Notes under the pieces: generated by a model
The model's input: the letters and a program-made list of their open reading frames with translations, nothing else
What the model was told of the DNA's origin: nothing
Database searches by the model: none
Program-made: the position numbers and the translations under genes
IMG/VR virus record: IMGVR_UViG_3300036781_000158
Location: 1 to 46,892 of that record
DNA: 46,892 bases
Source: a virus
Direction: 5' to 3' (one strand)
Shown: piece after piece, positions 39,098 through 46,892 of the stretch
How the letters are laid out: every line of letters begins with the position of its first letter
How positions within the stretch are numbered: position 1 is the stretch's first letter

Positions 39098-41725
39098 TCA
39101 ATCCGAAGTCCCATACAACGGTGCAAGCTTCGGCTTGAACAGCATCTCATCGTAAACCATCGCATCATGTTCGTGACTATGCGAGATCAAACCATTGTCT
39201 CTCAGATACTTGATCGCCTGCGTCGTCGAATCCGTCAAATCCCTAAACCGCCCCTTGGGAAACTCCCGACATTCCTCGATCACAAGGTCAGCCCATTCCT
39301 TGTCCGGCGCGTAAACCAACCCCTGCGCAAACGCAGGCTCTACCGCATGCGCCCGTGAAACCTTATCGCCCTCCGGTGTCACCAGCCGTATTCCCCAACC
39401 CTCATCGCCATGCAGCCGCCTTAGCTCCTGCGCCGCAGACATGCCGGACGCTTTCGATTCAACCAACAGCAAATCCACCTTGAACTTCTTGCACGAATAC
39501 GCAAGCCACTCGACCAATCCCCACTTCGAACTCGTCCGCTCGAAATAATCATGATCTTTCTCGTCAGGCTTGCGATCGATCCGCACGCCATGCAGCTCGA
39601 GAAACTTCCGCCACGCCCAAACCAACATGGCCTTGGGCCGGCCGTTGGTATCGCGGAACACACCCCAGATCGTGCAAGCCGATGGGTCGTTCTCCTCTTT
39701 CTCAGTGTACGCCGTGTCAGCCGAAGCCAGCAAAAACTCAAATGCAGGAAACTCCGGACTGGGCCAATCCTGCCAATACGTCTCCTTGATAATCCCGCCT
39801 TCCGCCAGCGTCGGCAATTGCTGCAACCGTCCCGAGGCCATGTACGGCCCGAGGCCGATCTTCAGAGCATGAACTTCCTTCGGCCCGAAACGCTCGGGCC
39901 ACATCAACTCATTCTCTTCGGTCCTGGGATCTTCCCAGACTTGTTCTGGTTCGCCCTCCTCATCCCACTTCAAAACTGTAACACAATGCCGCCGCGTGTC
40001 GTGCTCCATCGGGACCATGTAATGAACCCAGTCCTCATAGTCCGACGACTTCGTTATCTGCCCCGAGATATCCTCACCATGCAACCGCTGCATATTGACC
40101 ACGATCGCGCTTTGCTTCGGATCGTTCAAGCGCGTGGTCTTTATTTCATTCCACCAGTTCGTCGCCGTTAGCCGATCAGCTTCGGATTCAACTTCTTCCG
40201 TATTGTGTGGATCATCGCAATTGGCGCAAACTATACTTGACACGTTGTCGCCACAACACATATTACCATTGTCACGTACAGTTATGCAGTACGTCTCAGG
40301 AGGTAAATCATGCACCAACTCAATACCGACAACACGCAAGAAACTTGGCGAAATGTCGTCGGGTTCGAAAGGCTTTACGAAGTTTCCAGCTTCGGCCGCA
40401 TCAAGAGCATATCGAGGCCGCGAAACGATAAACTGTTTGTTCTCAAAGAACGAATTCTCTCTATCCTCATCAACAAAGGATATCCCCGCGTCACCATGAG
40501 ACGGAACGGAAAAACTCATTACCTGTTTTGCCATCAACTCGTGGCCCAAGCCTTTATAGGACAACCGCCACAAGGATGCGAAGTGCGCCACAAAGACGGA
40601 AACCGAACTAATCCTCGATTGGATAATCTCGAATACGGAACGCGATCGCAAAATATCGCCGATTGCAAAAAACACGGCAACTTTCGCAACGGAGCCTCTC
40701 ACCTTACAGAAGAAATTGTCTTGCAAATCGCGGCAAGACCGAACGATACCGCGGCAGTACTCGCTAAAGAATTCAACATTTCCCGAGGAACCATATCCGG
40801 CATTAGAAACGGCCGATGGTGGAAACACCTCAACATTCCCAAGCGAAGCTACATCAGACGCGGAGACGAACATCCCGCTAGACGCGGCAAGCAAATCGTC
40901 CCCAACTCGGAGTAATCCAGCCTCTACATACCCTCGCGATGTTAAAACACGATGATCAGCCGTACACTCTAGTCGCGTACCATCGCCAATCAATATCTTC
41001 AGCAAAGGACGTGGCGGGTTGGTATGCCAACCAATCACGTCCTTTAACTCAAATGCATCCAATGACCGATTATAGGACCACACTCGCGTCTCGCGACGTT
41101 GCTTTACAATATCGCCAATCTCAACAGGACCAGATTCCGTAACGATCGTTTGATGATATGGAAAGCAATTGATGATATCGCCACCAATCCCGAGCAGCGA
41201 ACCCCCAACCGACGACGCAATCCGCTGGCCGCCGGTAACCAAGTCAAAGTGCTCTTTTGTGTTCTGATCGTCGGCGATCCTGACTTCTTTCCCCCACCGT
41301 TCCTGATACCACGGGCTGAGAATAACCCGCCGCGTGGCATTAGAGTTTTCGAACGAAAGCTTCTGCCCGTACGATCCACACAGAAACCTGACCTGGTTTC
41401 CCGACCAGAACGACTTTTCTCGCCGCGTCCACGTCCACGCCGGCCAGCAAATCGAAGTAACAGTCGTCTTGCCCGTACGCGGCGGCATGTTGATGAGCAA
41501 ACGCTTGATCTGCCCTTCCGTTACCGCTTGCAAGTGCTCGCATAACCCATCGATTACCCATGACGGCTGATATCGCGCCGGATTGATGTAAGGCCAAGCG
41601 CCCTCGACAAAATCAATTAAGTTTGTCTCTAGCCTTTCCGTCTCCCGTAGAAACCGCATCCTTTGCGTCGCCAAGGCCAAGGACTTGAGTCTCGGATCGG
41701 ATGTAGTCTGCAAGCTCATCGGCAT
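39098..41725 (-). CDS. terL: Terminase large subunit containing an intein
   Basis: 875 aa precursor, predicted 559 aa after splicing. Walker A NMPPRTGKTT lies at residues 79-88. The intein (187-502) is inserted in Walker B, between GIGGDIIN and CDDPHN. The C-terminal nuclease domain has ASADTAY (Asp670), LLVESKASG (Glu756) and RDLTDSTTQ (Asp829, Asp832), giving the expected metal-binding acidic residues. The protein translocates DNA into the prohead and cuts the concatemer. The N-terminus is uncertain: ATG 41725 overlaps terS by 113 bases with no clear ribosome binding site, and starts further in are possible because conservation begins near residue 31. Splicing must occur for a working ATPase. 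Confidence 0.85.
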   Translation of the reverse strand: MPMSLQTTSDPRLKSLALATQRMRFLRETERLETNLIDFVEGAWPYINPARYQPSWVIDGLCEHLQAVTEGQIKRLLINMPPRTGKTTVTSICWPAWTWTRREKSFWSGNQVRFLCGSYGQKLSFENSNATRRVILSPWYQERWGKEVRIADDQNTKEHFDLVTGGQRIASSVGGSLLGIGGDIINCFPYHQTIVTESGPVEIGDIVKQRRETRVWSYNRSLDAFELKDVIGWHTNPPRPLLKILIGDGTRLECTADHRVLTSRGYVEAGLLRVGDDLLAASSGMFVSASDVASLGNVEVFPPSAVSNAGYGSSGNVEFFSEYCRGIVRSCRDLQDNFFCKVRGSVAKVAVFFAIGDILRSRSVFEIIQSRISSVSVFVAHFASLWRLSYKGLGHELMAKQVMSFSVPSHGDAGISFVDEDRENSFFENKQFIVSRPRYALDAAEAGNFVKPFEPDDISPSFLRVVGIELVHDLPPETYCITVRDNGNMCCGDNVSSIVCANCDDPHNTEEVESEADRLTATNWWNEIKTTRLNDPKQSAIVVNMQRLHGEDISGQITKSSDYEDWVHYMVPMEHDTRRHCVTVLKWDEEGEPEQVWEDPRTEENELMWPERFGPKEVHALKIGLGPYMASGRLQQLPTLAEGGIIKETYWQDWPSPEFPAFEFLLASADTAYTEKEENDPSACTIWGVFRDTNGRPKAMLVWAWRKFLELHGVRIDRKPDEKDHDYFERTSSKWGLVEWLAYSCKKFKVDLLLVESKASGMSAAQELRRLHGDEGWGIRLVTPEGDKVSRAHAVEPAFAQGLVYAPDKEWADLVIEECREFPKGRFRDLTDSTTQAIKYLRDNGLISHSHEHDAMVYDEMLFKPKLAPLYGTSD
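40237..40303 (+). promoter_or_regulatory. Candidate promoter and ribosome binding site of the antisense HNH gene
   Basis: On the plus strand, a perfect -35 TTGACA (40237-40242) is followed after 18 bases by TATTAC (40261-40266; 4 of 6 to consensus). A perfect Shine-Dalgarno AGGAGG (40298-40303) lies six bases before ATG 40310. All of this is inside the minus-strand codons for the intein C-terminal splicing blocks; the AGGAGG is antisense to the Pro-Pro codons of DLPPETYC. This indicates that the endonuclease is transcribed and translated independently of terL. Confidence 0.65.
40310..40915 (+). CDS. HNH homing endonuclease nested antisense inside the TerL intein
   Basis: 201 aa. An N-terminal NUMOD4-like DNA-binding motif (WRNVVGFERLYEVSSFGRI, residues 13-31) is followed by an HNH core: LFCHQLVAQAF (His75) and EVRHKDGNRTNPRLDNLEYG (His94, Asn98, Asn106). 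A C-terminal helix-turn-helix (DTAAVLAKEFNISRG, residues 146-160) follows. It would cut intein-less terL alleles and cause homing. Codon boundaries coincide with those of the intein frame on the other strand, so every TTA, CTA or TCA codon would stop TerL. All 14 Leu codons (CTC, CTT, CTG, TTG) and 11 Ser codons (TCC, TCT, TCG, AGC) avoid them, whereas these triplets occur freely out of frame. Confidence 0.9.
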   Translation: MHQLNTDNTQETWRNVVGFERLYEVSSFGRIKSISRPRNDKLFVLKERILSILINKGYPRVTMRRNGKTHYLFCHQLVAQAFIGQPPQGCEVRHKDGNRTNPRLDNLEYGTRSQNIADCKKHGNFRNGASHLTEEIVLQIAARPNDTAAVLAKEFNISRGTISGIRNGRWWKHLNIPKRSYIRRGDEHPARRGKQIVPNSE

Positions 41726-45610: not shown

Positions 45611-45807
45611 TGACCACCGATCGCACATGGGAAATCAAGGTACAAGTGAACGGGAAGTGGGAAGCGCGCACGGTAACGCTTGCCCAATATCGGGCGGAGT
45701 TAGATGCGCGTGCGGCCATGACGAAACCGATCATGGATGCATGGCGACGAGGCGACATTGCAGCGTGCGAAGCGGCACAAAAGTCCATGAGAGAAAAAGT
45801 ATCATGA
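45610..45807 (+). CDS. Hypothetical small protein
   Basis: 65 aa from ATG 45610, sharing the A of the previous TAA (TAATG). Sequence MTTDRTWEIKVQVNGKWEAR, then VTLAQYRAELDARAAMTKPI and MDAWRRGDIAACEAAQKSMR. A short beta segment is followed by two helices. Ends in TGA overlapping the next ATG. Translationally coupled member of the small operon; function unknown. Confidence 0.75.
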   Translation: MTTDRTWEIKVQVNGKWEARTVTLAQYRAELDARAAMTKPIMDAWRRGDIAACEAAQKSMREKVS

Positions 45808-46001
45808 CCTCCCTCCAATACCGTTCGGCGCTTGCCGAGTTGGGGCTGACCCAACTCGGGGCGGCCCGAGTGTTCGGGGTTGCCGGCCGCACTTCGCGCC
45901 GTTGGGCGTCTGGCGAGGCGTCCATTCCGACGATCGTGATCAAGGTTTTGAAGCTCGCCATTGCCCGCAGGGTTTTGCTTCGGGATATCGAGCAGGCTTA
46001 G
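45804..46001 (+). CDS. HTH regulator, XRE/antirepressor-like small protein
   Basis: 65 aa from ATG 45804 (overlap ATGA). MTSLQYRSALAELGLTQLGA, then ARVFGVAGRTSRRWASGEAS and IPTIVIKVLKLAIARRVLLR matches the compact HTH proteins I know from phages (LTQ.GAAR..GV..RTSRRW pattern). It probably binds an operator in the adjacent control region or acts as a transcriptional switch for the rightward operon. Last-but-one gene of the operon; the membrane protein follows ten bases later. Confidence 0.8.
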   Translation: MTSLQYRSALAELGLTQLGAARVFGVAGRTSRRWASGEASIPTIVIKVLKLAIARRVLLRDIEQA

Positions 46002-46010
46002 GAGAAAGAA

Positions 46011-46220
46011 ATGATGACACGAGCAGCTTGGACCGCATTTTTAATCAGCATATTCGTATTCTTCAGTCATGTCGCCCCCGATTCCGCGAAAGCTGTTGAT
46101 ATGCAACTGACGAGCGAAAGCCACGTTGCGAATGACGATAGCCGTCAGTTGGTAGGTGGCACATTTTTCGTATTCGGTTTAGGGATTATACTCGCAGTAT
46201 TGTGTATACGAAGGGAGTAG
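46011..46220 (+). CDS. Small two-span membrane protein
   Basis: 69 aa from ATG 46011 (or 46014), with AGGAG about 8 bases upstream. The N-terminus is a signal-like segment (TAFLISIFVFFSHVAPD) and the C-terminus a second hydrophobic helix (GTFFVFGLGIILAVLC) before RRE. Could be inserted in the inner membrane with both ends in the cytoplasm. It ends 43 bases before the CACTGTCAG array. Superinfection exclusion or host-interaction roles are possible guesses. Confidence 0.6.
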   Translation: MMTRAAWTAFLISIFVFFSHVAPDSAKAVDMQLTSESHVANDDSRQLVGGTFFVFGLGIILAVLCIRRE

Positions 46221-46560
46221 ACTGGAATGGATACAGCATTGGTTACATTCTCAGACAAATCCCCACTGTCAGGGAATCTATTATCCCCTCCCCTATTTTC
46301 CCATATATTCTCCTTTCGTTCTCATTATTACTAATCTTTAACATCTTATAACTACTTTCCTGACAGTGGGAAATATATATATATATATCATTGATATATA
46401 TAAGAAAAAGCCTAAAATAATTTCCTGACAGTGGCCCTGACAGTGGGACGGCAGTAGTATACCAGAAATTGTATTCCATTGCACTATCTACCCTAGACAT
46501 ACGCCCACTGTCAGCACTGTCAGCCACTGTCAGGACCCATTTTCCTGACAGTGCTACCCA
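46221..46560. other. Candidate replication origin with eight CACTGTCAG iterons and an AT tract
   Basis: The 9-mer CACTGTCAG occurs on the plus strand at 46264, 46506, 46515 and 46525, and as its complement CTGACAGTG at 46360, 46425, 46437 and 46545. Several pairs form 12-bp inverted repeats (CCCACTGTCAGG with CCTGACAGTGGG). Between them lies an AT-rich tract (46372-46402, alternating AT), which could melt. Iterons plus an AT tract beside a probable primase/helicase gene are the usual features of a phage or plasmid origin. A reading frame across this stretch (46243-46527, minus) appears fortuitous. Confidence 0.7.
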
Positions 46561-46892
46561 TCATTTTACCATCGAATAGAAGTAGGATGACCCCCCTCCG
46601 TTCTTGCGGGCATCCTTTTCGACCATCACCTCCTCCGTCCCGATGGTCAGCGTTTTGAGAACCTCTTCCACATCTCGCGCCTTGTATTTATGAGCGAGCT
46701 TCCGCAGCAAGTCCCTGCGCCTTACCCTTCCCTCTCCCCCGAGCGCCCGCTTGATGGCATTGACGATCGACTGGTTCTCACTATCCGCGATATAGAGGTT
46801 TGCCCCCCTAATCATGGTTTCAGTCGACCACATGGCCAGTTGCCGCGCCCAAATCATCGTCTCAAGACCTATTTCCATATGCCCCTGCCCGA
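46561..46892 (-). CDS. C-terminus of a probable replication protein (DUF3987/primase-helicase-like)
   Basis: The frame is open to the right edge of the window, so only the final 110 residues are seen; the first ATG inside the window (46878) is not the real start. The visible part MIWARQLAMWSTETMIRGAN is followed by ENQSIVNAIKRALGGEGRVR, RRDLLRKLAHKYKARDVEEV and a beta end KNGGGSSYFYSMVK. The winged-helix-like layout with RRDLLRKL.HKYKARDVEEV is what I recall at the C-terminus of DUF3987 and related phage replicative primase-helicases. The adjoining iteron array supports a replication role. Confidence 0.5.
   Translation of the reverse strand, partial: GQGHMEIGLETMIWARQLAMWSTETMIRGANLYIADSENQSIVNAIKRALGGEGRVRRRDLLRKLAHKYKARDVEEVLKTLTIGTEEVMVEKDARKNGGGSSYFYSMVK

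Follow-up and report, generated by a model that had tools for sequence, protein, structure and literature searches.

For most tailed phages we know of no described replication origin. In satellite phage P4, the alpha protein, a DnaG-unlike primase with an SF3-type helicase, binds the repeats of its own origin (ori/crr), an arrangement to which the locus studied here can be likened by description only, as a primase-helicase with its own origin repeats. Among the closest described systems are the Rep-ori modules of SaPIs and PICIs, where, in the sections of the sources cited here, the origin comes directly after the initiator gene and has two groups of short, element-specific iterons about an AT-rich region (PMC6092414, PMC7581432). 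A mark of such modules is autonomous replication of origin plus initiator, and an E. coli PICI pri-ori has been put to a maintenance test on a non-replicating vector. For SaPI Rep and for SCCmec Cch2 it is the C-terminal domain that binds short repeats located immediately 3′ of the gene, according to the cited part of PMC7581432. PrimQH and the all3500-type primases of mobile elements join an archaeo-eukaryotic-type primase to DUF3987-type ATPases and have a C-terminal winged helix predicted to recognise the origin (cited sections of PMC5862659), and in S. thermophilus phage Sfi21 a short noncoding element of the replication module acts as origin (PMC6356513, cited in part).

Here we describe a repeat array in a 46,892-base IMG/VR virus record, analysed over its full length and called the window below. 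Its layout shows two marks of PICI origins, namely the 3′ position and the two iteron sets about an AT-rich region: the array lies immediately 3′ of a primase-helicase gene, with the nearest iteron 10 nt from the stop codon, and iterons 1 and 2 are separated from iterons 3 to 8 by the AT-rich stretch, with uneven spacing. Unlike the SaPI/PICI systems, the array belongs to a tailed phage, primase and helicase form one Prim-Pol/DUF3987 protein, and the arrangement is known from sequence alone. As with Cch2, the repeats sit just downstream of a helicase gene, binding being proposed here; Cch2, however, is a Primase_Cterm/D5-type helicase with three 5-nt iterons in the cited part of PMC7581432, whereas the present locus combines DUF3987 with eight 9-mers. 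The sections of PMC5862659 cited above name no iteron arrays for the PrimQH and all3500-type proteins, while one is present here. The likeness to the Sfi21 origin, again by description, lies in a short noncoding element within a tailed-phage replication module.

The array and its neighbouring gene

The sequence-only reading had described four direct and four inverted copies of a 9-mer within 290 bases around an alternating AT tract, some pairs extending to perfect 12-bp inverted repeats, next to the C-terminus of a probable primase/helicase, and all of these features were recovered. Specifically, an exact-match scan of the window returned eight copies of CACTGTCAG, four per strand, at 46264-46553 and none elsewhere (Table 1). 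They lie in a 340-nt noncoding gap flanked by converging genes, a 69-aa ORF ending at 46220 and a minus-strand ORF ending at 46561. Six of the eight copies are preceded by C, and perfect inverted pairs of 12-13 nt are present (I4, I5, I8). The stretch between copies 2 and 3, which holds the alternating AT tract, is 16% GC against 40% for the entire gap. With at most one mismatch allowed, the motif has 15 sites in the window against 6.5 expected, the seven outside the array being scattered. When the window was shuffled 50 times with dinucleotides preserved, the count of any 9-mer per 300 nt never exceeded three; the array exceeds chance expectation.

Table 1. Features of the array in the window, and motifs of post-primase arrays in relatives
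Record	Feature	Position	Strand	Basis
Window	Iteron 1, CACTGTCAG	46264..46272	+	exact match
Window	Iteron 2, CACTGTCAG	46360..46368	-	exact match
Window	AT-rich stretch (16% GC) separating iteron 2 from iteron 3, where melting is proposed	46369..46424	.	base composition
Window	Iteron 3, CACTGTCAG	46425..46433	-	exact match
Window	Iteron 4, CACTGTCAG	46437..46445	-	exact match
Window	Iteron 5, CACTGTCAG	46506..46514	+	exact match
Window	Iteron 6, CACTGTCAG	46515..46523	+	exact match
Window	Iteron 7, CACTGTCAG	46525..46533	+	exact match
Window	Iteron 8, CACTGTCAG, closest to primase stop codon	46545..46553	-	exact match
Window	Prim-Pol/DUF3987 primase-helicase gene, 3′ end; codes for the C-terminal segment predicted as winged helix and proposed to read the iterons	46561..46890	-	sequence comparison, fold models
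Birtae	Post-primase array, TTCTAATGG ×8			≤1 mismatch
nyashin_LB6	Post-primase array, GTTGTATGG ×11			≤1 mismatch
Mcat11	Post-primase array, TGCAGACAA ×9			≤1 mismatch
Rhizobium phage 16-3	Post-primase array, GCGTGACAA ×15			≤1 mismatch
L163	Post-primase array, GAGCGTGCA ×8			≤1 mismatch
L162	Post-primase array, TTGCAACAG ×7			≤1 mismatch
L160	Post-primase array, TAATTCCAA ×6			≤1 mismatch

The further claim that such repetition is unlike the rest of the window held in part: the array is the sole mixed-orientation cluster over threshold, but same-strand repeats at ~401-620 and ~2500-2700 score comparably or higher. The former is a dense in-frame tandem repeat of the CAGTTGAGG type, with 16 same-strand copies in a single 300-nt interval, inside a gene for a DUF6745 protein (172-1290, + strand). 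The latter is GC-rich, and GC-rich repeats of the CGCAACGC/CCGCCTCGC kind are found on one strand between genes at ~1320-1390, 1970-2090 and 2600-2700.

Two familiar origin types were considered and rejected. The DnaA box has the consensus TTWTNCACA, and the motif is, as had been claimed, not such a box: 45901-46892 contains no exact one, and the two one-mismatch sites both fall outside the array, which speaks against a DnaA-dependent origin of the oriC type. Iteron plasmid origins consist of evenly spaced direct repeats, whereas the present copies, read from the primase side, run +---+++- at uneven intervals.

The minus-strand ORF beside the array runs off the window; the 109 aa encoded within it share 98% identity with the C-terminus of a protein from a near relative, the 12.9-kb contig L007/L047, which carries the whole primase gene and part of the array. 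The full-length gene matches phrog_3022, DNA primase, and its domains are Prim-Pol (E 3e-21) and DUF3987 (E 2.4e-7); no solved structure was retrieved with the primase sequence as query. L047 has more long ORFs on the primase strand, by eye a replication module (three of them were scanned for domains: the primase, the C-terminal part of a helicase and a 102-aa ORF), in which the primase comes last and is followed by the array. The contig ends within the array, and all four iterons visible there are retained. Between the window and L047 the array has one change in 119 shared nt against 14 in 340 for the adjoining coding DNA, a contrast too small to lean on. L047 also has ~257 nt between primase stop and array that are absent from the window (L047 12530-12786 versus window 46553-46577), with a ~25-nt direct repeat at the flanks and, by eye, a short minus-strand ORF.

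Arrays behind related primase genes

A tblastn search identified 161 phage records with a relative of the primase, all below 60% identity. Loci were fetched for 21 named and 89 viral-contig records (80 kept of 216 confirmed, and nine of nine from a second set), and 109 loci (the 21 named, L047 and 87 of the 89 viral-contig loci) were sorted into 22 groups at 75% identity, L104 and L153 being excluded from the grouping as their gene is cut at its end. The array scan covered 37 of the 109 loci, at least one per group, and, in 300-nt scan windows, compared recurring 9-mers (up to one mismatch tolerated) with shuffles; a match had z ≥5 and five or more copies, with two or more on each strand, a threshold chosen after a first look.

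Arrays were found at 0 to +700 nt from the primase stop in 10 of the 22 groups (21/256 scan windows), or in 9 of 21 when L047, which belongs to the positive groups, is left aside. At 2.5 kb or more upstream of the stop there were none (0/22 groups, 0/935 scan windows), and four of 22 groups had one in the 2.5 kb before the stop (4/925 scan windows, three of which overlap the stop). Further down, the yield was two of 20 groups at +700 to +1600 (3/303) and three of 20 beyond +1600 (3/533). Pooled, 21/256 against 10/2696 scan windows gives a Fisher p of 5e-16, but the group counts are the fairer measure, since scan windows overlap, several loci were scanned in some groups and the threshold was set after a first look. 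At the same threshold, 12 of the 22 groups had no match at 0 to +700, several of them close to the phage type. These include the groups of Vibrio 1.030/H188, H40-1/C7, pCB2051-A, RcSpartan, Serratianator, Kakheti25/KL1, KLB29, 033B and Lucius (z 3.9), as well as the large CRP-901-like group, where arrays lie further down in some members.

Fifteen arrays, that of the window included, were mapped relative to the primase stop, and in 11 of them the first copy lies -5 to +28 nt from it; in the remaining four (Ssp-JY40, PmaS-R3, L134 and L139) it lies at +386 to +1496. GC content is below that of the array's own locus in all 15, as is common for intergenic DNA. The motif differs between lineages (Table 1), and no correlation is seen between motif likeness and the identity of the primases (Spearman 0.09, p 0.29). 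Mixed-orientation clusters occupy one place each in the window, in complete Achromobacter phage nyashin_LB6 (OQ817840) and in 48 of 60 kb of phage 16-3 (DQ500118), each time behind the primase. The 16-3 protein, p101, carries an annotation of similarity to a RecA-family ATPase, and its match covers query residues 11-210 alone, which is the Prim-Pol part, so the array pattern may reach beyond DUF3987 helicases.

Other comparisons returned little. No comparable mixed-orientation array of exact 9-mers was seen in relatives by portal gene (MW202675 over its full length; parts of CRP-901, RW and HTVC027P). A DNA similarity search with the array region gave nothing useful in phages, the sole match being 30 nt in two Burkholderia phages at E 0.7, and nothing in plasmids. 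Scanning viral contigs for two nearby copies of CACTGTCAG yielded 51 stretches, of which, besides L047, nine had at least three copies per 500 nt; eight of these nine (L056 not among them) were rejected as looking like tandem, coding or simple repeats. We found no reports of such arrays with DUF3987 or Prim-Pol phages in the open-access literature.

A predicted winged helix as possible motif reader

Fold models suggest that the helicase core of the primase-helicase is MCM-like and that its C-terminus forms a winged helix. Taken as a whole, the full-length model is weak (mean pLDDT 52), but its residues 330-646 match MCM helicases with a VIA Z of ~17. The C-terminal piece modelled alone (mean pLDDT 62) has its elements in winged-helix order and matches known folds of this class at Z ~10, with an rmsd of 1.5 over 63 residues for 9f27; Foldseek alone gave this piece no match under E 0.08.

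It is likely that the neighbouring primase-helicase itself reads the motif and acts as initiator; the relatives point both ways. One natural pair fits the winged helix as reader: L159 and L167 are 95% identical in the body of the protein and 61% in the winged-helix segment, and their motifs are AATTCCAAC and GCAATGAAA, respectively, whereas L159 and L073, with 87% body and 88% winged-helix identity, have a motif in common. Against this, L160 has the same motif as L073 and L159 despite 64-68% winged-helix identity. In SaPIs and PICIs the initiator is an AAA+ helicase whose C-terminus binds the iterons; here an MCM-like core and a winged helix are predicted, and across nine relatives the motif does not track winged-helix identity (Spearman 0.01; with body identity allowed for, partial Mantel r -0.06, 1236 of 2000 permutations being at least as high as observed). 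Post hoc, the winged helix has LVA or LVT in the AATTCCA relatives L073, L159 and L160 and LVR in L162-L167, whose motifs contain TGCA or GCAATG, a split that may reflect chance or ancestry.

Origin reading and alternatives

Taken together, the recurrence of arrays in relatives, the domain layout and the published SaPI, PICI and SCCmec precedent support the earlier proposal of a replication origin, with a phage-encoded initiator as the better of the two options that it had named (the other being an unusual host factor), and we put the probability of an origin of the self-loading-helicase kind at roughly 70%. The adjacent gene encodes a Prim-Pol primase fused to a DUF3987 helicase, predicted to be an MCM-like AAA+ enzyme, and to a predicted C-terminal winged helix; the latter would bind the CACTGTCAG iterons that directly follow the gene. 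Iterons of both orientations flanking the AT-rich stretch could then seat helicase rings, this stretch would melt, and the primase-helicase itself would unwind and prime. GC skew, which had been suggested as a check, lent the proposal no support: the cumulative curve falls along the window with no clean turn at the array, and skew is -0.17 at 46.0-46.9 kb and near zero to slightly positive on the L047 coding strand, so that it neither supports nor excludes an origin here.

The array might also be an origin whose iterons are read by another DNA-binding protein of phage or host, which then recruits the primase-helicase. Motif sharing independent of winged-helix identity over the nine relatives would fit such a reader, as would the small HTH-type genes annotated next to the primase in some relatives (CRP-901 gp12; KL1) and a small XRE-like helix-turn-helix ORF seen by eye at 45805-46001 (+) of the window. 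We nevertheless regard it as rather unlikely: SaPI Rep and Cch2 use their own C-terminal domain on iterons (cited part of PMC7581432), the L159/L167 motif change accompanies a divergent winged helix on a nearly constant body, and the L047 gene that directly precedes the primase gave no match to Pfam and is by eye a zinc-ribbon. Still less probable is an operator or promoter-control region bound by a transcription regulator. Promoter-like sites do occur on the + strand at 46391 and 46545 (four found in the stretch against 2.2 expected), yet the flanking genes converge, which places the array behind both, and the window has no second exact-copy site of the kind that a phage-wide promoter element would leave.

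Phage 16-3 bears on this alternative and on a further one, an attachment site with arm-type sites for an integrase: in its record, attP (30.5-30.8 kb) and the operators of the C repressor (35.6-36.5 kb) are marked ~26 and ~20 kb, respectively, from the array at ~56.2-56.6 kb, so the 16-3 array is neither. Short repeats in both orientations over ~290 nt do resemble attP arms, and in Moraxella phage Mcat11 an attL is annotated 249 nt past the primase stop; matches to PF00589 or PF00239, however, were found in neither of two records (the window and L047, both possibly fragments), and we hold this reading to be very improbable. The Mcat11 attL (L178, 3801-3813) lies just behind the post-primase array, and some phages may thus place attachment and origin functions close together. 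That the array has no part in replication, being a partition site, a decoy or a spreading repeat there by accident, would agree with the lack of arrays after the primase in 12 of 22 groups, but recurrence at one position with unrelated motifs is not expected of a spreading repeat, nor are exact copies present elsewhere in the window, and we give this possibility hardly any weight.

Returning to the origin reading, it is tempting to extend it to a broad set of tailed phages with SaPI/PICI-type origins, in which a protein made of Prim-Pol, MCM-like helicase and winged helix has its own iterons directly downstream, with a motif that is lineage-specific and can be switched with the rest of the protein nearly unchanged (L159 versus L167); we consider the case for this generalisation evenly balanced. 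If the rule holds, origin and initiator could be read from sequence in phages with a Prim-Pol primase of this type, and natural motif switches such as L159/L167 would offer a direct handle on how the initiator winged helix chooses its DNA word. If true, phages and their satellites would also be linked by a common origin design. PICIs are satellites reliant on a helper phage, with no head and packaging set of their own; the element in the window is itself not a PICI, since it encodes its own large and small terminase subunits and portal. The large-subunit gene (39098-41725, - strand) appears to bear an intein: terminase matches are split at about residues 185 and 503, and residues 201-489 give a weak, sub-cutoff Pfam intein match.
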